From assembly GCF_003259615.1 (NCBI RefSeq), contig NZ_QLLR01000012.1, positions 62,001 to 126,000 of the forward strand: a DNA stretch of 64,000 nucleotides, read 5' to 3'. The position numbers and the translations under genes were made by a program. Below the pieces are notes generated by a model, which did not search any database, was not told the DNA's origin, and worked only from the letters and a program-made list of their open reading frames with translations. Source of the stretch: Pedobacter cryoconitis (GTDB lineage: Bacteria > Bacteroidota > Bacteroidia > Sphingobacteriales > Sphingobacteriaceae). Positions 29,468 through 41,203 of the stretch are shown in pieces (the stretch's first letter is position 1; each line of letters opens with the position of its first letter).

Positions 29468-30565
29468 ATGAAAGGTTTCCATTTTTCTAATTTTCAAGCA
29501 GATGACAAGCCTAAGGGCGGGTTTGATGAAATGCTGAAGTTATTTACCCAGCTATTGAATTATACTGCGGGTGACGCAGGTGAAACACTGGCATGGATGA
29601 ATGAACTGGATAAGCAATATAAGTTTACCACAGGCGATTACGGTATGGGTGATTTTATTGATGAGCTGAAAGATAAGGGCTATATCAAAGAAGATCCTAA
29701 GGACGGCGGTATGGACATCACAGCAAAAACTGAACAGGTGATCCGGAAGTCTGCGCTGGAAGAAATCTTCGGCAAGCTGAAGAAAGCCGGAAAGGGTAAT
29801 CACAATAGCAATATCTCTGGTATTGGCGAAGAAAAGAATGCAGATCGCCGCGAATACACCTTTGGAGACAGTCTGGATCAGATTGATATGACTGCGTCGA
29901 TACAAAATGCACAAATCAATCATGGTATCGGCAACTTCACTTTGACTGAGGGTGACCTGGAGGTCGAGGAAAAAGATTATAAGACGCTGACTTCAACGGT
30001 GCTGATGATTGATATTTCCCATTCTATGATTTTATATGGAGAAGATAGAATTACACCGGCTAAAAAGGTAGCGATGGCGCTTGCCGAACTGATCAAAACC
30101 CGTTATCCCAAAGATACACTCGACATTGTGGTATTTGGAAATGATGCCTGGCCGATTACTGTGAAGGATCTTCCCTACCTGCAAGTTGGGCCTTACCATA
30201 CCAATACCCTTGCGGGTTTGGAGCTGGCTGCAGATTTACTGCGTCGCCGCAAAACACATAACAAACAGATTTTCATGATTACTGACGGTAAACCGACCTG
30301 TCTGAAAGAGAACGGCCGTTACTATAAAAACAGTATGGGACTGGATAGAAAGGTGATTAATAAAACCTTGAATATGGCTGCACAGTGCAAACGGCTGAAT
30401 ATCCCGATTACTACTTTTATGATTGCCCAGGACCCCTATTTACAACAATTTGTAAGGGAGTTTACAGAAATAAACGGGGGAAGGGCTTTTTACAGTTCCC
30501 TAACTGGTTTAGGCGAGTACATTTTTGAAGATTATATTAAAAACCGAAGAAAAATAGTCCGTTAA
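29468..30565 (+). CDS. VWA-domain protein partnered with an AAA+ ATPase
   Basis: The 365-residue cytoplasmic protein has an N-terminal helical part (about 1-170) and a C-terminal von Willebrand A domain. The metal-ion site is Asp-Ile-Ser-His-Ser near residue 181, with the later Thr and Asp of the site in Thr-Leu-Ala-Gly and Met-Ile-Thr-Asp-Gly-Lys. VWA proteins next to MoxR/magnesium-chelatase-type ATPases act together to remodel or insert metals into target proteins. No tetrapyrrole-chelatase gene is nearby, so a protein-remodelling role is more likely than Mg chelation. The ATPase gene starts 17 bp downstream. Confidence 0.82.
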   Translation: MKGFHFSNFQADDKPKGGFDEMLKLFTQLLNYTAGDAGETLAWMNELDKQYKFTTGDYGMGDFIDELKDKGYIKEDPKDGGMDITAKTEQVIRKSALEEIFGKLKKAGKGNHNSNISGIGEEKNADRREYTFGDSLDQIDMTASIQNAQINHGIGNFTLTEGDLEVEEKDYKTLTSTVLMIDISHSMILYGEDRITPAKKVAMALAELIKTRYPKDTLDIVVFGNDAWPITVKDLPYLQVGPYHTNTLAGLELAADLLRRRKTHNKQIFMITDGKPTCLKENGRYYKNSMGLDRKVINKTLNMAAQCKRLNIPITTFMIAQDPYLQQFVREFTEINGGRAFYSSLTGLGEYIFEDYIKNRRKIVR

Positions 30566-30582
30566 TCCGGGCAAATACACCT

Positions 30583-32082
30583 ATGGAGCAAACCTCAATT
30601 AAAACTCTTGGCGAATTAAAAGCCTCAAATTACATTTCCTTAACAGTAAAAGACGAATTGCGCAAGAACCTTATTCAGCAGCTTCAAAATAAAGATGCTG
30701 GGTTTGAGGGTATCGTGGGTTATGATGAAACTGTTATTCCTGAACTTCAGACTGCGATTTTATCCAGACATAATATTCTGCTATTGGGTTTAAGGGGGCA
30801 GGCTAAAACACGTATTGCACGTTTAATGGTCAACCTGCTCGATGAATATATCCCTTATATTACGGGAAGTGAAATCTTTGATGATCCTTTGAATCCGATT
30901 TCCTGGTTCGGGAAACAAGAAGTTGCTGCCCATGGTGATGCAACGCCGATCAGCTGGCAGCACCGTTCGGATCGCTATACAGAGAAATTAGCTACGCCGG
31001 ATGTTACTGTAGCCGATTTAATTGGTGATATGGACCCGATTAAAGCCGCTACACTGAAATTAACCTACAACGATGAACGTGTGATCCACTTTGGATTAAT
31101 CCCAAGAGCACACCGAAGCATTTTCGTAATCAATGAGCTCCCCGATTTACAGGCAAGGATACAGGTGGCATTATTTAACATGCTTCAGGAAAAAGACATT
31201 CAGATCAGAGGCTTTAAACTACGTCTTCCATTGGATGTACAATTCGTATTTACAGCAAACCCTGAGGATTATACCAACAGGGGATCAATTGTAACGCCGT
31301 TGAAAGACAGGATAGAAAGTCAGATCCTTACCCACTATCCTAAAACTATTGCAATCTCCCGCAAAATTACTTTTCAGGAGGCAAAAATCACTGAAGCACA
31401 AAAACTGATCGAAGCCGATGGTTTAGTAAAAGATTTGATTGAGCAGGTTGCTTTCGAAGCCCGTAAGAGTGAATTCATCGATCAAAAATCCGGTGTATCT
31501 GCGCGTTTAACGATTTCTGCTTACGAAAACCTGATCAGTACTGCCGAGAGAAGGATGCTGATTAACGGCGAGAAGAAAACTTTCGTGAGACTTGCTGACC
31601 TGACTGGAATTATACCAGCAGTAACCGGTAAAATAGAATTGGTTTATGAGGGTGAGCTTGAAGGCCCTGCTAAAGTGGCCAATATCCTGATTGGTAAAGC
31701 TATCAAAAGCCTGTTCAACCGCTACTTCCCAGATCCGGAGAAAGCAAAGAAAAGCAAAACGGCGAATCCTTATCAATTGATAACAGATTGGTTCACAGAC
31801 GGCAATACGCTGGACATTGCTGATAACCTGACTGAATCTCAATATAAGAAAGAGCTGATGCAAGTTGGCGGCCTGAACGAACTCGTTAAACAGTTCCATC
31901 CTAAGCTAAGTGCTAATCAAACCCTTTTATTAATGGAGTTTGCCTTACATGGCCTTGCGGAATACTCTCAGTTGAACAAAAAATATTTGAGTGGTGGTTT
32001 TGGTTTCTCTGATATGTTTGACAGCTTATTTAATACTGATCCTGAAGAGGATGAAGACGACGATATTGATTTCAATGCCTAG
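30583..32082 (+). CDS. AAA+ ATPase, magnesium-chelatase/MoxR-like
   Basis: The 499-residue protein has a P-loop Gly-Leu-Arg-Gly-Gln-Ala-Lys-Thr near residue 63. The Walker B region reads Phe-Val-Ile-Asn-Glu-Leu-Pro-Asp; Asn for the first Asp appears to be usual in this subfamily. Sensor 1 is in Thr-Ala-Asn-Pro-Glu-Asp-Tyr-Thr-Asn-Arg-Gly near residue 225. It ends in an acidic tail (Glu-Glu-Asp-Glu-Asp-Asp-Asp). It lies directly after the VWA gene, and the two likely form a chaperone-like complex. The substrate is unknown. Confidence 0.85.
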   Translation: MEQTSIKTLGELKASNYISLTVKDELRKNLIQQLQNKDAGFEGIVGYDETVIPELQTAILSRHNILLLGLRGQAKTRIARLMVNLLDEYIPYITGSEIFDDPLNPISWFGKQEVAAHGDATPISWQHRSDRYTEKLATPDVTVADLIGDMDPIKAATLKLTYNDERVIHFGLIPRAHRSIFVINELPDLQARIQVALFNMLQEKDIQIRGFKLRLPLDVQFVFTANPEDYTNRGSIVTPLKDRIESQILTHYPKTIAISRKITFQEAKITEAQKLIEADGLVKDLIEQVAFEARKSEFIDQKSGVSARLTISAYENLISTAERRMLINGEKKTFVRLADLTGIIPAVTGKIELVYEGELEGPAKVANILIGKAIKSLFNRYFPDPEKAKKSKTANPYQLITDWFTDGNTLDIADNLTESQYKKELMQVGGLNELVKQFHPKLSANQTLLLMEFALHGLAEYSQLNKKYLSGGFGFSDMFDSLFNTDPEEDEDDDIDFNA

Positions 32083-32119: not shown

Positions 32120-33409
32120 ATGGGCCGATTACCCTTTCTTATTGCAGGATGCCTTTTAATCATCGCATTCGATTTTTACTTCGTCAAGGCGATTTTATCT
32201 GCTTTCAAAAACTGGAGTGAAAAAGCAAAAATCAGGTTTACCCGCATCTACTGGGGTATAACCATAGTCTTGGTGATTGGCGTTTTTGCTGGCATCTTCT
32301 CCAATCTCTTTCTATCTCTGCGCGCAATCATCCTGGTCACTTTTTTCCTGACCACGGCCTGCAAAATCGTGATGCTGCCCTTTCTGCTGGTTGATGACCT
32401 GCGCAGACTAGCTATTGCTATATTCAGACGTATCAAAAGATCAGGGAATGACAACACAACTGGCTCAGCTCATCAAACATCCATTAGCAATAAAACTGGT
32501 TTAGCCATTGAAGAGCCAATCAGCCGCTCCTCGTTTATTGTCAAAGCCGGACTCGTTGCGGCAGCAATCCCACTGACTTCATTATCCTGGGGTATTATAT
32601 CAGGTGCTTATGATTACCAGGTCCGTAGAAAAACATTGATCCTCCCTAACTTACCTGCTGCCTTTGACGGGATCACGATGGGACAAATCTCGGACATCCA
32701 TTCCGGAAGTTTTTACAATAAAACTGCCGTAAAAGGCGGTGTGGAAATGCTGCTTGGTGAAAAACCAGACTTCATCTTCTTCACCGGGGACATCGTCAAT
32801 GACATGGCCACTGAAATGCGCGATTATCAGGACATCTTCAGTAAAATAAAGGCTCCTCTTGGTGTCTTTTCATCCCTCGGAAATCATGACTACGGCGACT
32901 ATCATTTTGGTAAAGAGTCATCCCCTGCCAAAGTCAAAAACCTGAAGGACGTAATCAAAACCCACGAACTCATGGGCTGGGATCTCTTAATGAATGAAAA
33001 CCGCCGATTAAAAATTGATGGTGAGGAAATCGGAATCCTCGGTATCGAGAACTGGGGTATGGGACGTTTCCCAAAATACGGCCGCATGGATCTCGCAGTT
33101 CAGAACACCGATGACCTTCCCGTAAAGCTTTTACTCTCACACGACCCTTCACACTGGCGTGCCGAAGTCCTGCCTAAATATCCTCAGATAGATGCCATGT
33201 TTAGTGGTCACACCCACGGTATGCAATTTGGCGTACGTACCGAAAAATATCAGTGGAGCCCTATAGAGTATATCTATAAAGAATGGGCAGGATTATATCA
33301 GGAACAGAAACAACAACTCTACGTTAACGTGGGCTACGGCTTCCTGGGCTATCCCGGAAGAGTAGGTATCTTACCGGAGATCACCATCTTCACACTGAAA
33401 AGAGCCTAA
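32120..33409 (+). CDS. Membrane-anchored metallophosphoesterase
   Basis: The 429-residue protein has three to four N-terminal membrane helices (about 5-27, 43-65, 68-92, then 140-160). A calcineurin-like phosphoesterase domain follows, with all metal motifs: Ser-Asp-Ile-His-Ser-Gly (about 193), Gly-Asp-Ile-Val-Asn-Asp (about 225), Gly-Asn-His-Asp (about 255), Leu-Ser-His-Asp (about 341) and Gly-His-Thr-His-Gly (about 363). This layout matches YkuE/YaeI-type phosphodiesterases acting on envelope lipids such as UDP-diacylglucosamine-like substrates. The exact substrate is an inference. It lies 38 bp after the AAA+ gene. Confidence 0.88.
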   Translation: MGRLPFLIAGCLLIIAFDFYFVKAILSAFKNWSEKAKIRFTRIYWGITIVLVIGVFAGIFSNLFLSLRAIILVTFFLTTACKIVMLPFLLVDDLRRLAIAIFRRIKRSGNDNTTGSAHQTSISNKTGLAIEEPISRSSFIVKAGLVAAAIPLTSLSWGIISGAYDYQVRRKTLILPNLPAAFDGITMGQISDIHSGSFYNKTAVKGGVEMLLGEKPDFIFFTGDIVNDMATEMRDYQDIFSKIKAPLGVFSSLGNHDYGDYHFGKESSPAKVKNLKDVIKTHELMGWDLLMNENRRLKIDGEEIGILGIENWGMGRFPKYGRMDLAVQNTDDLPVKLLLSHDPSHWRAEVLPKYPQIDAMFSGHTHGMQFGVRTEKYQWSPIEYIYKEWAGLYQEQKQQLYVNVGYGFLGYPGRVGILPEITIFTLKRA

Positions 33410-33759: not shown

Positions 33760-34479
33760 ATGAAAACTCACTTTATAACCTACGGAGACGATAAATACAG
33801 AGAGCAGAGAAAATTCCTCAAACAAACAGCCGTAGATTCCACCTTTTTCGACGAAGTAAAAGCCTATAGCCCATCCACCATAGACCCCATCTTCGCCAAA
33901 CACTTCAAATCAATACTTGAACAGGGAAAAGGCGGAGGATACTGGATCTGGAAACCCTACCTCATTAAGAGAATATTCGACACCCTTCCGGAAAACGACG
34001 TTTTAATCTATGCTGACGCAGGATGTGTCATTAACAAAAGAGGAGCCCAGCGCTACCACGAATACCTGAACCTGCTCACAGCAACCGACACCGGTATACT
34101 CGCCTTCGAACTCCCCCACAAAGAAAATGAATATACCAAACAAGAAGTATTTGATTACCTCAAAACACCAGCAGAAATTATCAATTCTAATCAATTGATG
34201 GCAACTGTTATCATGCTGAGAAAATGCCACCACACCACACAACTCATAGACAAATGGTACGACACACTATATGAAGCCCCATCCCTGTTTACAGACCAGA
34301 AAAACCCCGCCATTCAGCAAAAAACCTTTATAGACCACCGCCATGATCAAAGTATATTCAGTGTACTCAGAAAAACACATGGAGCCCTGATTATACCAGA
34401 CGAAACACACTTCCTCAATTTTATAGAAGATGGAACAAAGTACCCCTTCTGGGCTGCCAGGTTGCGTGATGACATTTAA
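33760..34479 (+). CDS. Putative GT-A glycosyltransferase-like protein
   Basis: The 239-residue soluble protein has a Gly-Tyr-Trp-Ile-Trp-Lys-Pro-Tyr motif near residue 60. An acidic Ile-Tyr-Ala-Asp-Ala-Gly near residue 84 resembles the metal-binding DxD region of GT-A sugar transferases. A late Asp-His-Arg-His-Asp-Gln-Ser stretch lies near 190. I recognise this pattern from uncharacterised polysaccharide-associated proteins but cannot name a family with certainty. It stands alone after the C-rich gap. Its codons favour C at the third position more than most genes here. Confidence 0.5.
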   Translation: MKTHFITYGDDKYREQRKFLKQTAVDSTFFDEVKAYSPSTIDPIFAKHFKSILEQGKGGGYWIWKPYLIKRIFDTLPENDVLIYADAGCVINKRGAQRYHEYLNLLTATDTGILAFELPHKENEYTKQEVFDYLKTPAEIINSNQLMATVIMLRKCHHTTQLIDKWYDTLYEAPSLFTDQKNPAIQQKTFIDHRHDQSIFSVLRKTHGALIIPDETHFLNFIEDGTKYPFWAARLRDDI

Positions 34480-34536: not shown

Positions 34537-35226
34537 TTATCCCGCATTAAAACGGTATCCAATACCCCTCACAGTTTGCAACAACTGAGGATTATCAGGA
34601 TTTAACTCAATCTTCTTTCTTAAACGAACAATATGCATATCAAGCGTACGCGTATTTACATCAGAATTATAACCCCAGACAACCAGCATCAACTCATCAC
34701 GGTTAATTACCTTATTCGGATTTCTCAGGAAATATAATAAAATCCTGTTCTCTAATATCGTTAACTCGATCTTTCTTCCGCTTCTGTAAAGCGTATGAAT
34801 ATTAGGATGATGCTCCATATCCCCGAAACGGTGGATCTCTGACTTATCATTGTTCAGCAAAAACTTCACCTTACTCTCCAGCATCGCCACCAAAACATCC
34901 ATATTAAACGGCTTGGTCACATAATCAGACACCCCAAAAGTATAAGCATCGATCTTGTCCACATCCTGCGCCTTAGCAGTCATCATAATAATCAAATTCT
35001 CAAAACCCTGCTTACGCACCTCCTGACAAACATCTGATCCCTGCTTACCCGGTAACATCCAGTCCAGCAAAACAATATCAGGCTTTTCATCCATGATAGT
35101 TTTTACTGCCAGCTCACCATCACCAGTTTCCAGTACATCATAACCCTCAGACTTTAGTCTGTGTACCACTAAAAACCTTAAATTTTCATCATCCTCAACT
35201 ATCAGTATTTTAATTCCTTTAGACAT
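34537..35226 (-). CDS. OmpR-family response regulator
   Basis: The 229-residue protein has a receiver domain with Val-Glu-Asp-Asp-Glu (residues 10-14), a phospho-acceptor Asp in Leu-Leu-Asp-Trp-Met near residue 55 and Thr-Lys-Pro-Phe near 105. It ends in a winged-helix DNA-binding domain with Arg-Thr-Leu-Asp-Met-His-Ile-Val-Arg-Leu-Arg-Lys-Lys-Ile. All phosphorylation residues are present. It lies 4 bp after the histidine kinase and is its obvious partner. Confidence 0.95.
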   Translation of the reverse strand: MSKGIKILIVEDDENLRFLVVHRLKSEGYDVLETGDGELAVKTIMDEKPDIVLLDWMLPGKQGSDVCQEVRKQGFENLIIMMTAKAQDVDKIDAYTFGVSDYVTKPFNMDVLVAMLESKVKFLLNNDKSEIHRFGDMEHHPNIHTLYRSGRKIELTILENRILLYFLRNPNKVINRDELMLVVWGYNSDVNTRTLDMHIVRLRKKIELNPDNPQLLQTVRGIGYRFNAG

Positions 35227-35230
35227 ATCT

Positions 35231-36898
35231 TTAATTATTATAAGGCAGTACTATTTTAAACTCTGTTCCTTTATTTACTTTACTCTTTACCGTAATCTCA
35301 CCCTTCATGAAATTCACCAGTTCCTTACAAAAAGCCAACCCCAAACCAACACTACCATTCTGATTATATTGGTTCTGTATCCGGTAAAACTTCTTAAAGA
35401 TATTATTAATTTCTGGTGTAGGAATACCTATCCCCTGATCCACAAATCTGAATACAACTTTTCCTTTAATCATTCTCGCTACAATATGCAGCCGCTTATG
35501 CTCAGGACGAGAATACTTATACGCATTCTCCGCTAAGTTGTCAAAAAGACTGCCAAGCAACACCGGATCGGTAATAAATGTCCCAAAACCAGTAACCTCG
35601 TAAGTGACCACAAAATCAGGATGCTTCAACGTATGTGACTCGATTGTACTCTCAATAAAGTCTACAATATTGATTTCATCATGATTCAACTGAATAGCCC
35701 GATTTTCAATTTGCGTGAAAGCCAGTAACTTGTTCATCAGTCCATTTAACTTGTCGGCTTCCTCATCCAGGATCTTACCATACAACTTAAGCTCCCTTTC
35801 AGTCAGCGCACTCGCACTTTTAATATTATTACCTGCTATCTTGATCACACTCACAGGTGTTTTAAACTCATGCGTCAGATTATTCACAAAATCGTACTGC
35901 AATTTAAACATCTTATGATTAATATTCAGATTTCTGTAAATCAAAACAGTTACCAGAACCAAAATTCCATAGAAAAGTAACATGACCAAAGCAATAGGCA
36001 TAAAATAACTCAGGATCTCCTGAGCTACAAACGACTTTGCCGAAATAAAATAAAGCTTATAATCTGAAAATGGCCCCGGTAAAGTAATCTCTGTGGCCAC
36101 ATAATCTGTAGACGTATTTAAAGGATCATAAGTAAGCGGCTCAATTCTTATGTTTTGATATAACAGCGGACGCGTATTGATAATCCTGATCTTATAAGGA
36201 TCAAGATGAAAAGATAACATATCCTGCTGATAAACCGGAGACGGGCTCAGCTGCTGCCTTAACATCTGCTTATAGACCTTTAAATCTTCAAACCCCGGAA
36301 TATTCAGGTAAGTGATCTTGTTGGAACGGATAATGCTGAAATTCGTAAAAAGCTCTTCCTGACTAGGCACACTCGTGGTATCCAGACTCTCAATGTAAGA
36401 AATCAGCTTAATTCCTAAAGCATTAAAATCGTCTCCCCTGCTGAACTTTTTCGTATCATCCCTGGAAAACAATTTGACTGAATCCAAAGGCACTAAATCA
36501 CCAAACTGATAAATATTTTTAGGGCCAAAAGAGAAATGCCCGGTATTCAGTCCATCCCTGACCGGCGAATTGCCAATCTCAGAATCATAAAAAACCACCT
36601 TTGAAACGAAAGGATAGGCGTTAATAATCGTATCGACAAACTTCGATGCCGTCGCAGAATCAAGATAACCATTGTAATAAGAGATTTCAGGGACTTTGTT
36701 CTGAAAAAACTCATTGTAAGGCTTAATACTTTCTTCCAGTACCTTTACCTTTTCAGAGACAAACTCATTCTCTATAAATTTCTTACTGAAATTATACGCC
36801 AGAAACAGCGACAAGATAAACAGTACAGAGATCAGCACAATGAAGGTGACGATCAGTGAAAAGTTCTTACGATAGCCACTAGTTTTTTCCGGAGCCAT
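35231..36898 (-). CDS. Membrane sensor histidine kinase with a large periplasmic domain
   Basis: About 555 residues. A first membrane helix (about 12-34) is followed by a roughly 250-residue periplasmic sensor region of no family I recognise and a second helix near 295-320. The HisKA domain has the phospho-His in Leu-Thr-His-Glu-Phe-Lys-Thr-Pro near residue 344. The ATPase domain has Asn-Leu-Ala-Glu-Asn-Ala-Tyr-Lys-Tyr-Ser, Asp-Gln-Gly-Ile-Gly-Ile and Gly-Leu-Gly-Leu-Ala. I use the ATG at 36898; a GTG at 36907 directly abuts the stop of the upstream S9-like gene. It forms one unit with that gene and the regulator. Confidence 0.9.
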   Translation of the reverse strand: MAPEKTSGYRKNFSLIVTFIVLISVLFILSLFLAYNFSKKFIENEFVSEKVKVLEESIKPYNEFFQNKVPEISYYNGYLDSATASKFVDTIINAYPFVSKVVFYDSEIGNSPVRDGLNTGHFSFGPKNIYQFGDLVPLDSVKLFSRDDTKKFSRGDDFNALGIKLISYIESLDTTSVPSQEELFTNFSIIRSNKITYLNIPGFEDLKVYKQMLRQQLSPSPVYQQDMLSFHLDPYKIRIINTRPLLYQNIRIEPLTYDPLNTSTDYVATEITLPGPFSDYKLYFISAKSFVAQEILSYFMPIALVMLLFYGILVLVTVLIYRNLNINHKMFKLQYDFVNNLTHEFKTPVSVIKIAGNNIKSASALTERELKLYGKILDEEADKLNGLMNKLLAFTQIENRAIQLNHDEINIVDFIESTIESHTLKHPDFVVTYEVTGFGTFITDPVLLGSLFDNLAENAYKYSRPEHKRLHIVARMIKGKVVFRFVDQGIGIPTPEINNIFKKFYRIQNQYNQNGSVGLGLAFCKELVNFMKGEITVKSKVNKGTEFKIVLPYNN

Positions 36899-36907
36899 AT
36901 TATTCAC

Positions 36908-38800
36908 CTATTTCCTGGATAAATTTACAGACAAAAATTGCTCCAATGAAGCATATAGCTTCTGACGCATATCCTCACCCTGCGGAGAAAATTCATTATA
37001 TTCTTTTTCCAGATAAGTCACATTCACATTTCTTTTTTTAAGCTCTTTTACAAACTGAACAGCCTCACCGGAATTGCTCCTTGGATCTTTCGGACTCTGC
37101 GCAAGAAACACGGGAACCCTGAATTTATCTGCGTGAAACACCGGAGAAACCTGTCTCATCCGGTCACCCTCTGTTACAGGATTACCGATCACCTCATAGT
37201 ACATCTGCAAATTGGTCTTCAAAAATGGGGGAATGGACTTCAGGTAACTAAATAAATTTATCACTCCAGAATTAGAGCCGCCGCAAACATACATCCCCGG
37301 ACTCGAATATAAACTATTTAACGCGATATAACCACCAAATCCAGAACCATAAATAGCGATTTTCCTTGGATTCGCAATTTTATTCTCAATGAGCCATCTT
37401 ACGCCATCATTAATATCATCTTTGATTTTACCACCCCATTGACCAGATCCTGCAGCCGCAAAAGACTTCCCGTAACCGGATGAGCCTCTATAGTTCACCT
37501 GAAACACTGCGTACCCTCTATTTGCAAGGAACTGCACCTCTGCTTTGTAACCCCAGGAGTCTCTGCGTCCCGGGCCATCATGCGGCAAAACAACCACAGG
37601 AAGGTTTGAAGACGGTTTATTAATCGGTAAAGTAAGGTACCCCTGTATTTTTAATCCGTCACGTGCGGTATAAGAAACAGGTTTCATTTCGCACATTTCA
37701 GCTTCTTTAACGTAAGGATTAAAATCACTTAGTTTTCTGATCGTACCTTTATTGGCGATATATAAGTAATAAGAACCCGGATTCCTATCTGTAAATGTTC
37801 TTACAATAAATGTATTCTCTGCTTTATCTCTGTCAATAATTCTGGATTCAGTACCTGGTAATAATTTATCAAGCTTTTCATATAACTTTTTGACAGAAGG
37901 GTCCAGATAGTGCTTCTCCTTTTTCCAGGTTTCACAGATTACAAAAGCTATTGTTTTCTTGGATTCTGAATATTGAGCATCCACTACATTCAGCGTATCG
38001 TTACTGAAAAGTACTTTGCTTTCTTTCCCCGTCAGACAATTTAATTCTATTAGTGCATTTTTATCTCTGTTGACGTTAGAAATCGCGTAAACAATATTTG
38101 GCCTCACGTCCGAAATCGCAATAGGCGTGAAAGTAGTTTTAAAATTATTGGTCACTACAGCTCTGAAGGCCTGGTTTTCAGTTTCCCTGTAGAGTAAAGT
38201 CTGGTTTACCCCATCACTGGTAGTGGCCAGGCGTATCTGCCCTTTCGAATCTGTAACCCAGTTGGTAATGTTTCCGGGATTCCTGGCAGCCATGTCCATC
38301 TGACCGTCCCTTACATTTAAGCGGTAAACATCAAATACTGTGGAATCTCTTTTATTAGACGAAACCAATAAGAATTTACCATCTATCAGCTGATCTTTGA
38401 GAACGTGCATCCTGCTTTTCCCATTGTCACTCAGCTGACGTTCATTTTCTCCGTTTTTATTGATAATAAAAATATCAGATAACCGGTCTGCACCAGCTTT
38501 TTCTTTATAATAAACGATTTCATCATTACTCACCCAGAAATAATAATTGATATTCTTTTCGTTCAATTGTGTGATCTGTGAGGATCTGCCAGTAGTCAGA
38601 TCTTCTACAAATAAGTTTTGCTTTTTACCCTGCAATTTCAAATAAGACATAGTTTTACCGTCCAGAGAAATTGCATAAGAACCCTTATCCTGTGCCTTAA
38701 AGAAGTCGGCTACAGGAATAACCCTTACCTGCCTGCTTTGCCGGCAAGCACTAAAAAGGGCTAGAAGAACAATTAATAAATATCTTTTCTTTAGGGTCAT
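36908..38800 (-). CDS. S9-family (prolyl oligopeptidase-like) lipoprotein with degenerate active site
   Basis: The 630-residue protein has a signal peptide with lipobox Phe-Ser-Ala-Cys (Cys19), a beta-propeller-like middle region, and a C-terminal alpha/beta-hydrolase domain. The hydrolase elbow reads Gly-Ser-Gly-Phe-Gly-Gly, so the nucleophile position (about 487) is Gly instead of Ser. The Asp is kept in Pro-Lys-Asp-Pro-Arg (572), but the catalytic His position (about 602) is Asn in Tyr-Asn-Glu-Phe. It is therefore predicted to lack peptidase activity. I start at the ATG at 38800 because it gives the lipoprotein signal; the frame extends to 38938. The histidine kinase follows at once. Confidence 0.85.
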   Translation of the reverse strand: MTLKKRYLLIVLLALFSACRQSRQVRVIPVADFFKAQDKGSYAISLDGKTMSYLKLQGKKQNLFVEDLTTGRSSQITQLNEKNINYYFWVSNDEIVYYKEKAGADRLSDIFIINKNGENERQLSDNGKSRMHVLKDQLIDGKFLLVSSNKRDSTVFDVYRLNVRDGQMDMAARNPGNITNWVTDSKGQIRLATTSDGVNQTLLYRETENQAFRAVVTNNFKTTFTPIAISDVRPNIVYAISNVNRDKNALIELNCLTGKESKVLFSNDTLNVVDAQYSESKKTIAFVICETWKKEKHYLDPSVKKLYEKLDKLLPGTESRIIDRDKAENTFIVRTFTDRNPGSYYLYIANKGTIRKLSDFNPYVKEAEMCEMKPVSYTARDGLKIQGYLTLPINKPSSNLPVVVLPHDGPGRRDSWGYKAEVQFLANRGYAVFQVNYRGSSGYGKSFAAAGSGQWGGKIKDDINDGVRWLIENKIANPRKIAIYGSGFGGYIALNSLYSSPGMYVCGGSNSGVINLFSYLKSIPPFLKTNLQMYYEVIGNPVTEGDRMRQVSPVFHADKFRVPVFLAQSPKDPRSNSGEAVQFVKELKKRNVNVTYLEKEYNEFSPQGEDMRQKLYASLEQFLSVNLSRK

Positions 38801-38845: not shown

Positions 38846-39034
38846 CAGGCAATACACTAATATTGTTACCTGAACAGCAATGGAGAGCGACTCAAAATAG
38901 GAATATTTTATCGCTGATAAAGAAATGTCCGGTAACATTTAAAATACGGGTAATCCTGGGTGATGGGAAACCACAATTTATTATCTTTATTTTTGATAAC
39001 AATTTCTTTGCTGTTCAGGTTGATTCAGAACATT

Positions 39035-40846
39035 ATGATCAAAACAATATTGGCAATTATACTTTGCTTTACAGGTTCACTATCATTATTGGCACAAACT
39101 AATAATGATAATGAAATGGCGATGCTATATTATCAAAATGGAGATTATCAAAAAGCTTCCATATTACTGGAGAAAATAGCCATCAAAACAAAGAACGAAG
39201 CTTATTTAGACCTTTACTTCAATGCCCTTATCAAATCAAAACAATATGAGGTAGCTGATAAAGCGATTAAAAAGCTGATCAAACAAAACCCCGGATCGTC
39301 AAAATATCTGACTATACAGGGCCGGATTTATAAGGAAAAAGGAGAACTGGATAATGCGGCAAAGACTTTTGATCAGCTTTTGCATTCCCTTCCTGAAGAT
39401 GAATCTAAAATAAGAACGCTGGCAAATGATTTATACCAGATAGGCGAATATGATCTGGCTGCGGATGTATTTCTGCAAGCGCGGAAAAATCAGAAGAACA
39501 ATCAGCTCTTCACTTTTGAACTGTTAAGCATTTATCGTTTCAAAAAGGACAAAAACAAGCTGGGGGAAGAATATTTAAATGCTTTGTCTACCATGCCGCA
39601 AATGTTACAGCAGGCTGAGACGGTATTACCATCGGTCTTTGAAACGAATGCCGATTACCAGACACTTCAGAATTCTCTATTCAAAAGGATACAGAAAGAT
39701 CCGCAAAATGAATCTTACTCAAAGCTGCTGATCTGGCAATTTTTGCAGCAAAAAGAATATGATATGGCACTGCGCCAATTAATTGCACAGGATAAAAGAA
39801 TTAAGGATGACGGAACTATCTTATTTGAACATGCGCAGATATTTGCCTCTAATAAAGCTTATGATACGGCTATCAAAGCATATACTTATCTAGCATTGAA
39901 GGGCAAGGATAGCCCCTATTATCTATCTTCCAAGTTAGCATTGATCGATGCCAGTTATCAAGCGCTTTTATTGGGGAAAAATGAGCAGAAAGATGTGGTA
40001 GCACTTGCGGCTCAATATCAGGAGATCCTGGATGAATACGGCAGGAATGCTAAAACACTTTTTGCACTCAGAAAATGGGCAAATCTACAGGCTTATTATC
40101 TGAAGGATCTTAAAAAGGCAGAATCCGCATTGGAAGAAGCTATAAAAATTCCGGGTATCGCCAGTGCTGAACTGGCTGAAATGAAACTCGAGCTTGGAGA
40201 TATTTACAGACTTACACAACAACCTTGGGAGGCCATTTTGATGTATGAGCAGGTCGCTAAGGAGTTTGAAAATCAAAACATAGGAACAGAAGCAAAATAC
40301 AGATCTGCAAGGTTATCATTTGAACAGGGAAATTTCAGTTATGCTAAATCGCAGGCAGATGTATTAAAGGCTTCAACAGAACAATTGATAGCGAATGATG
40401 CGCTAAATCTCAGCCTTTTGATCTCCGACCACCTGGAAACCAAAACGGATACACTGGCGCTTAAAATGTATGCCGCTGCTGAATCATTACAATTCAGAAA
40501 CCTCCATAAGGAAGCTATAGCCAAAGTGGACAGCATTGCCTTGTTATATCCTAAAAACAGTCTTACTGATGATATTTTGATGTTTAAATCAAACATATAT
40601 ATCAAAAACAGGGATTTCGCTCTTGCTGTGCCTTTGCTTAAAGAATTGATCGGACATCAGCAAAAAGGAAACTGGGCAGATGAAGCGTTGTTTATCCTTG
40701 CCGGAATCTATGAAGACCAATTGAACGATCCTGAGCAAGCTAAGACATTATATCAAAAATTGATTGTGGACTTTCCGGGAAGTATGTTTGTAACTGAGGC
40801 ACGCAAGCATTTCAGGAAATTGAGAGGTGATCCTATGGAATCCTGA
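39035..40846 (+). CDS. Periplasmic TPR-repeat protein
   Basis: About 603 residues: a signal peptide (ending Leu-Leu-Ala-Gln near residue 20), then tetratricopeptide helices along most of the length. Recognisable TPR units (Gly-Asp-Tyr-x-Lys-Ala, Gly-Glu-Leu-Asp-Asn-Ala-Ala) lie near the N-terminus, and a C-terminal unit ends Asp-Pro-Glu-Gln-Ala-Lys-x-Leu-Tyr-Gln-Lys-Leu. TPR proteins are scaffolds, often in outer-membrane or type IX assembly, but nothing identifies a partner here. The ATG at 39035 is chosen because it begins a clean signal peptide. It is divergent from the S9-like gene. Confidence 0.8.
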   Translation: MIKTILAIILCFTGSLSLLAQTNNDNEMAMLYYQNGDYQKASILLEKIAIKTKNEAYLDLYFNALIKSKQYEVADKAIKKLIKQNPGSSKYLTIQGRIYKEKGELDNAAKTFDQLLHSLPEDESKIRTLANDLYQIGEYDLAADVFLQARKNQKNNQLFTFELLSIYRFKKDKNKLGEEYLNALSTMPQMLQQAETVLPSVFETNADYQTLQNSLFKRIQKDPQNESYSKLLIWQFLQQKEYDMALRQLIAQDKRIKDDGTILFEHAQIFASNKAYDTAIKAYTYLALKGKDSPYYLSSKLALIDASYQALLLGKNEQKDVVALAAQYQEILDEYGRNAKTLFALRKWANLQAYYLKDLKKAESALEEAIKIPGIASAELAEMKLELGDIYRLTQQPWEAILMYEQVAKEFENQNIGTEAKYRSARLSFEQGNFSYAKSQADVLKASTEQLIANDALNLSLLISDHLETKTDTLALKMYAAAESLQFRNLHKEAIAKVDSIALLYPKNSLTDDILMFKSNIYIKNRDFALAVPLLKELIGHQQKGNWADEALFILAGIYEDQLNDPEQAKTLYQKLIVDFPGSMFVTEARKHFRKLRGDPMES

Positions 40847-40888
40847 ATTTATTCCTGTAATTTATAAAATTACACAAACTCTTAATTA

Positions 40889-40896
40889 TATCTTTG
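40889..40896 (+). promoter_or_regulatory. -7 element of the DUF4286 gene, four bases before its ATG
   Basis: TATCTTTG, a perfect TAnnTTTG match, ends four bases before the ATG at 40901. It predicts a leaderless or nearly leaderless transcript covering this gene and rfbC. No good -33 box is visible. Confidence 0.45.
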
Positions 40897-40900
40897 TGCC

Positions 40901-41203
40901 ATGTTATTATACAATGTAACCCTGATTATTGAAGAAGCTTCTGCTGCGGCATGGCTGCAATGGATGCAAGAAGAACATATTCCTGAAGTAATGGCTACTG
41001 GATTATTCGTTTCCAACAGATTATTAAAAGTAGTCGATTCACCAAATGAAGGTGTAACTTATTGCGCACAATACGTTGTACAGTCAATTGAAGATTATGA
41101 TGCTTATCAGTTAACGCATGCAAATGCGCTGGCAGCAGAATTAAATAGTCGTTTTAAGGATAAATTCGTTTCTTTCACTACCGTAATGGAATATATAGCC
41201 TAA
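40901..41203 (+). CDS. DUF4286 family protein
   Basis: A 100-residue soluble protein that starts Met-Leu-Leu-Tyr-Asn-Val-Thr. It has Trp-Leu-Gln-Trp-Met near residue 22, His-Ile-Pro-Glu-Val in the first helix and Tyr-Cys-Ala-Gln-Tyr in a later strand. These fit DUF4286, a small ferredoxin-like fold family widespread in Bacteroidota and of unknown function. It lies 2 bp before rfbC, so the two are translated from one message. Confidence 0.8.
   Translation: MLLYNVTLIIEEASAAAWLQWMQEEHIPEVMATGLFVSNRLLKVVDSPNEGVTYCAQYVVQSIEDYDAYQLTHANALAAELNSRFKDKFVSFTTVMEYIA

Follow-up and report, generated by a model that had tools for sequence, protein, structure and literature searches.

Genetic Organization of the Locus

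The window, meaning the whole stretch of 64,000 nucleotides of Pedobacter cryoconitis DNA analyzed here, carries on its reverse strand three adjacent genes encoding an S9-like lipoprotein, a sensor histidine kinase and a response regulator. The first of these occupies positions 36908–38800 and was assigned to an S9-type pseudo-peptidase lipoprotein of 630 amino acids on the basis of its signal peptide, its Pfam match and a structure model. Its frame was read directly from the sequence, from an ATG at 38800 to a TAG stop codon at 36908–36910. A start at 38938 was also considered and rejected, since it merely yields the longest frame and the signal peptide and lipobox fit the start at 38800. The kinase gene (35231–36907, reverse strand) begins with a GTG at 36907, directly after this stop codon and without any gap, as the initial annotation had described it. 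It encodes 558 amino acids with two transmembrane helices as well as HisKA and HATPase_c domains, and is followed downstream by the gene of an OmpR/PhoB-type response regulator (34537–35226, reverse strand). HisKA, HATPase_c, Response_reg and Trans_reg_C were all found above the Pfam cut-off, identifying the pair as a two-component system, and the motifs NLTHEFKTP and LLDWMLPG, which we take to be the H-box and the acceptor-Asp motif, respectively, can be read in it. No account of this two-component system was found in the open-access literature searched.

Fold and Catalytic Motifs of the S9-Like Lipoprotein

The lipoprotein comprises a lipobox with Cys19, a beta-propeller (residues ~25–375) and an alpha/beta-hydrolase domain (residues ~376–630). 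It matches PF00326 with an E-value of 7.2e-33, and phmmer aligned its residues 30–623 with the acylaminoacyl peptidase 5l8s (E 5.1e-33). The AlphaFold2 model reached a mean pLDDT of 88.7, with low values at residues 102–106 and 603–606, and its comparison with 5l8s by VIA gave a Z-score of 34.1 (rmsd 4.4, 582 aligned residues). Together with 1ve6 and 4hxe, likewise S9 acylaminoacyl peptidases, 5l8s represents the best match in both sequence and fold. These three enzymes are active, and the roles of the Ser-Asp-His triad and of the HGGP motif are established for them; to our knowledge, no kinase partner is known for S9 acylaminoacyl peptidases.

It had been claimed from the sequence of the window that Gly takes the position of the catalytic nucleophile at about residue 487, that Asn takes that of the catalytic His at about residue 602, that Asp572 is all that remains of the triad and that propeller and hydrolase shell are otherwise intact, the gene not having simply decayed. 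Direct reading and alignment bear out the Gly at codon 487 (37340–37342, reverse strand) in the GSGFGG elbow, which in its wider context reads YGSGFGGY and has Ser486 at the −1 position. The alignment also agrees with Asp572 (37085–37087, reverse strand) being the sole triad residue left. The claim regarding the catalytic His holds in part: codons 602–604 (Asn-Glu-Phe; 36989–36997, reverse strand) form the site at which it is expected, and no His is present anywhere in residues 557–630, but Asn602 fills the respective column in the phmmer alignment to 5l8s, whereas the family alignment places Phe604 there. Furthermore, the HGGP loop has changed to HDGP (residues 407–410). The window protein thus possesses the fold, the PF00326 domain and the Asp of an active S9 peptidase and lacks its Ser and its His; with the fold kept, the nucleophile lost and the gene under selection (see below), it qualifies as an S9 pseudo-peptidase. 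The Pfam match, the pLDDT and the VIA score show the shell to be intact. Chance or decay is ruled out by the presence of Gly at this position in all 42 Pedobacter-type loci added below, together with dN/dS values far below 1 where these could be measured.

The Periplasmic Sensor Domain of the Kinase

Residues ~38–300 of the kinase, located between its two transmembrane helices, form a periplasmic domain for which the initial annotation had named no family. This stands as far as Pfam is concerned, since none of 42 orthologues matched a Pfam Cache family at an E-value of 0.1; the fold, however, models as dCache-like (pLDDT 86.8). In Foldseek, the best E-value was 1.9e-3, with none at or below 0.001, and several of the leading matches were titled as dCACHE or sensor domains. 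VIA gave a best Z-score of 10.1 (rmsd 5.1, 207 aligned residues), the leading matches being ligand-binding domains of chemoreceptors, presumably of the dCache type. Taken together, the models are suggestive, rather than proof, of a dCache-like fold. In a draw of genomes from the order, the sensor domain was present as a single copy in 200 of 201 genomes, all of its own family, and when up to five candidates per genome were scored in a sample of 395 genomes from the class, it was found solely in the 15 genomes of that same family.

Distribution and Conservation of the Operon

The sample of the family comprised 151 genomes, 141 of which contained a match to the S9 protein at a threshold of E 1e-30. 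For the analysis of gene order, the linked copies of all 141 genomes were combined with 42 added loci (40 titled Pedobacter and two from other MAGs), resulting in 183 loci. In 182 of these, the frames for the S9 protein and the kinase lie on the same strand and at most 200 nt apart, the sole exception being G142 with its split S9 gene, and wherever both kinase and regulator could be located, i.e., at 161 loci, the two genes are neighbors without exception. A single frame covers the complete S9 protein in 136 of the 141 linked copies. Two further copies (G138, G079) are cut by contig ends. In G142 (L127) and G113 (L130) the gene is split into two overlapping frames upstream of the kinase, apparently by a frameshift or a sequencing error, and in G123 (L261) it is shortened to ~511 amino acids, with part of the propeller apparently missing, and still precedes the kinase. 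These five copies were left out of the conservation list, the all-homologue tree and the divergence test.

The assumption that the S9 gene stays beside the same kinase is therefore supported by 182 of 183 loci, but it fails in the genus g11, where none of the six sampled genomes contained an S9 match (E 1e-30) and five kept the kinase. Genomes of g11 are small, and at L142–L146, where kinase and regulator are retained, the kinase directly faces the TPR-like gene which elsewhere flanks the S9 gene. In the sixth g11 genome (G080, 83% complete), neither S9 gene nor kinase was seen. The same applies to G008, G009 and G043, whose genomes are 71–76% complete, and to G067, which is 100% complete.

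In the window, the divergently oriented gene for this TPR-like protein (named by eye) lies at 38960–40846 on the forward strand. It is regarded as context of the operon, not as an established part, and is a frequent neighbor, occurring in 74 of the 93 loci having at least 2500 nt upstream, and a small gene at 40901–41203 is kept in 88 of these 93. Other neighbors vary, with the gene at 33760–34479 being present in one and that at 32120–33409 in 54 of the 93 loci. Because the TPR-like and the small gene are conserved as well, gene order alone is weak evidence for a functional link between the S9 protein and the kinase.

Catalytic Residues in Linked and Unlinked Copies

Of the 141 linked copies, 90 have Gly at the nucleophile position and 41 have Ser; Arg (six copies), Glu (two) and Asn (one) are rarer and one copy is unread, meaning that the nucleophile is lost in 99 of 140 readable copies; all 42 added loci have Gly. 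Of the other triad residues, the Asp is present in 138 and the His in 52 of 140 copies, and the HGGP motif is kept in 49 of 141. There are 13 copies which have lost the Ser and kept the His, and two with Ser and without His. The full Ser-Asp-His triad is found in 39 of 141 linked copies, all in the same operon, and 21 of these 39 also keep HGGP. Loss in all orthologues, one of the points raised by the initial annotation, is thereby ruled out, and the reading of the protein as a former peptidase has to be amended to this extent: fold, operon and lipobox are conserved and catalysis has been lost, but not in every orthologue. The 39 copies retaining the triad may still be enzymes. All Ser codons at the nucleophile position are of the AGY type, one step away from Gly, which might explain the prevalence of Gly; the strained geometry of the elbow favors this residue too.

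The picture differs outside the operon. The unlinked set consisted of 11 paralogues among those listed and 51 homologues from the class outside the family, the latter being drawn from 59 listed non-family matches, of which the eight weakest or partial ones were left out. Ser is kept in 61 of these 62 proteins. All 11 paralogues examined have the whole triad and HGGP, and the class homologues have Ser in 50 and His in 49 of 51 cases, one of the two without His being cut off. The one protein lacking Ser is a lipoprotein of G388 (L322:7453–11728) with a GAFFGGF elbow and EGRG at the His site. Its gene is arranged head-to-head with those of another kinase and regulator. This kinase has a different sensor domain and aligns with that of the window solely over the kinase part and the last membrane helix, and the relatives of G388 from the same order that were read (G357, G321) have the triad. 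G388 is therefore a possible second and independent case of a dead S9 protein beside a kinase. A BLAST search with two kinase domains, covering flanks of mostly ~1.5 kb, revealed no kinase directly beside any of the 11 paralogues or of the remaining 50 homologues from the class; L276 has a regulator and L124 a kinase-like frame at a greater distance.

Repeated Loss of the Nucleophile

A tree of S9 protein and kinase, calculated without the S9 motif columns and rooted on the active paralogues, required at least 15 changes of the Ser and nine of the His by parsimony. The kinase-only tree with 140 rows gave 15 and nine changes, respectively, and IQ-TREE, applied to 114 of 152 rows, gave 14 and nine. 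G115 and G062 (L010, L218) contain Ser and no His and are placed inside Gly clades; their Ser residues are probably reversions, and disregarding them reduces the number of Ser changes to 13 in both the combined and the kinase-only tree. Counting losses without allowing any regain would raise the number to 29; the minimum-change count, which was used instead, does not separate loss from gain, the direction resting on the active outgroups. By parsimony, loss of the nucleophile thus occurred repeatedly, about 13 times, and not universally. Since intact triads are found in the same operon and the outgroups are active, the order of events was linkage to the kinase first and repeated loss later. The intact triads accordingly date the change and do not disprove an accessory role of the protein.

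In a tree of all homologues, with 16 Ser and 11 His changes, the linked copies account for a branch length of 41.9 substitutions per site versus 18.9 for the unlinked ones. The chance of all losses falling on the linked side would be 0.024 for 10 and 0.008 for 13 losses, a rough estimate given that the support at the base of the linked clade was 0.0 and that the outlier L303 (G388) fell inside this clade.

Selection and Membrane Anchoring

Values for dN/dS were read solely from pairs of operons with dS below 1, which applied to five of 15 pairs, all with Gly487, and ranged from 0.009 to 0.029 for the S9 gene. The measured Gly487 copies are under strong purifying selection, implying that the dead copies in these pairs are functional genes.

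The lipobox reported by the initial annotation was confirmed, and its Cys is common to all 136 full-length linked copies, whereas it is absent from all 11 paralogues. The idea that lipid anchoring arose newly in the operon was dropped, as the Cys is also found in 11 of 20 class homologues, and anchoring may therefore be older than the operon. No acidic surplus was present just after the Cys in 113 of the 136 full-length copies, and by the general rules for surface lipoproteins of Bacteroidota the S9 lipoproteins are predicted to be periplasmic and not surface-located.

A Putative Accessory Subunit of the Histidine Kinase

It is likely that the S9-like protein acts on the kinase. The initial annotation had proposed that a former peptidase binds a peptide or wall fragment in the periplasm and signals to the kinase, both ligand and signaling being putative. 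The more specific assumption that the lipoprotein is anchored in the membrane as an accessory subunit of its neighboring histidine kinase and has no catalytic function there is, in our estimation, evenly balanced between being right and wrong. According to this model, an active S9 peptidase entered the kinase-regulator operon in an ancestor of the family, as shown by distribution and tree, and the propeller and hydrolase shell would then have taken over a binding role. With binding as the job of the protein, catalysis would have become dispensable. Ser, His and HGGP loop were lost over and over while the fold has been under strong selection. The present-day lipoprotein might bind a ligand in the periplasm, which could be a peptide or another former substrate, and might contact the dCache-like sensor domain, thereby altering the kinase or phosphatase activity and, in consequence, the OmpR-type regulator. 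That the kinase uses the pseudo-peptidase specifically as its receptor subunit for ligand binding, the active site having been reduced to binding alone on about a dozen separate occasions, is a more tentative proposal, which we put forward as the less probable part of the model.

As a possible alternative, and one that has a real though smaller chance of being correct, the lipoprotein might have a non-catalytic role of its own, e.g., as envelope scaffold, chaperone or binding protein, and not signal to the kinase at all; its place in the operon would then reflect control by the two-component system or conserved gene order. The g11 genomes, in which kinase and regulator persist without the S9 protein, count against the accessory subunit and are readily explained by such a role, as is the conservation of neighbors outside the operon. 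The two copies split by apparent frameshifts, the 39 copies with a full triad and the lipobox shared with class homologues likewise count against the accessory subunit. Coevolution does not decide the matter either. A first mirror-tree run yielded partial correlations with the sensor domain of 0.56 for the propeller and 0.44 for the hydrolase domain, but when a control was included, the values for the S9 protein (0.31–0.41) were no better than those for the TPR-like protein (0.25–0.38), and this signal, not being specific, was dropped as evidence. On the other hand, the concentration of catalytic loss in kinase-linked copies speaks against an independent role, given that 61 of 62 homologues elsewhere keep the Ser and that the one without it, in G388, adjoins another kinase. 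The complete genome G067, which is without S9 protein and kinase together, likewise speaks for the accessory subunit.

It is rather improbable that the lipoprotein functions as a negative-feedback partner, which in its free form would hold the kinase off and release it upon binding of a misfolded or wall-derived ligand, making the system a sensor of stress and not of nutrients. That the S9 protein shares an operon with the kinase to be controlled would suit this arrangement, and accessory envelope proteins acting on kinases are a general type; activation and inhibition, though, are not separated by the present data.

That the protein is still an enzyme employing another nucleophile or mechanism appears very unlikely. 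Of 140 copies, 138 retain the Asp, the fold is modeled confidently and the triad persists in 39 of 141 copies, all of which would fit an enzyme. A takeover by a nearby serine had been raised as an objection in the initial annotation; the residue at −1, the place of Ser486 in the window protein, is Ser in just 20 of 140 linked copies and elsewhere T, N, Y, F, A, G, R, E or M, ruling out a replacement nucleophile at this position. The His position varies as well, and HGGP is kept in just 49 of 141 copies.

Simple degeneration of the gene hardly deserves consideration, as two split copies (G142, G113), the shortened one (G123) and the one clade without the gene are set against 136 of 141 copies in one frame, two more cut merely by contig ends, and dN/dS values of 0.009–0.029 in the measurable Pedobacter-type pairs, the latter ruling out decay for the genus of the window.

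Comparison With Known Systems

Regulation of signaling proteins by pseudo-enzymes is well documented for both animals and plants. The plant receptors GID1, DWARF14 and KAI2 lack a propeller and are not known to involve a histidine kinase, and in GID1 the catalytic His is lost. These proteins reuse an alpha/beta-hydrolase fold as hormone receptor, as proposed for the S9-like protein. In LuxPQ and other kinases having a partner in the periplasm, this partner passes its signal on to a kinase whose domain is of the tandem-PAS or dCache type. The ligand of LuxP, a periplasmic binding protein, is known, whereas contact of the S9 lipoprotein with its kinase is a proposal.

A close parallel within the S9 family is offered by the mammalian proteins DPP10 and DPP6. 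DPP10 has undergone a Ser to Gly replacement (GKGYGG elbow) and serves Kv4 channels, DPP6 carries Asp instead of the catalytic Ser and is a Kv4 channel partner, and the fly orthologue of DPP10 is ancillary to a channel while still being an active peptidase (PMC4350108, PMC4873792). As in the case of the window protein, both are described there as membrane-anchored and as having kept the S9 fold with the catalytic Ser replaced, and the fly orthologue suggests the same order of events as that assumed for the S9-kinase operon. In contrast to the bacterial lipoprotein, DPP10 and DPP6 are eukaryotic members of S9B with an eight-bladed propeller, an ion channel as partner and a proven complex, and DPP10 keeps the His that the window copy lacks. 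By analogy, the receptor-subunit reading would provide a bacterial counterpart to DPP10-Kv4 with living intermediates at many stages, a parallel that we offer with reserve.

The repeated loss within one kinase operon provides a natural series, ranging from copies with an intact triad to copies in which hardly any catalytic residue is left. With operons that are otherwise equivalent, this series makes a general question testable, namely whether enzymes turn into regulators before they lose their chemistry. The lipoprotein also offers a starting point for finding the input of the two-component system, which nearly all members of the family possess.

Two further observations concern the surroundings of the operon. 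The TPR-like and the small gene (38960–41203) constitute a conserved block beside it and are a possible functional neighbor. On the other side, positions 29468–32082 contain a pair of genes whose products, judged by eye, resemble a VWA-type protein and a MoxR-like AAA+ ATPase.
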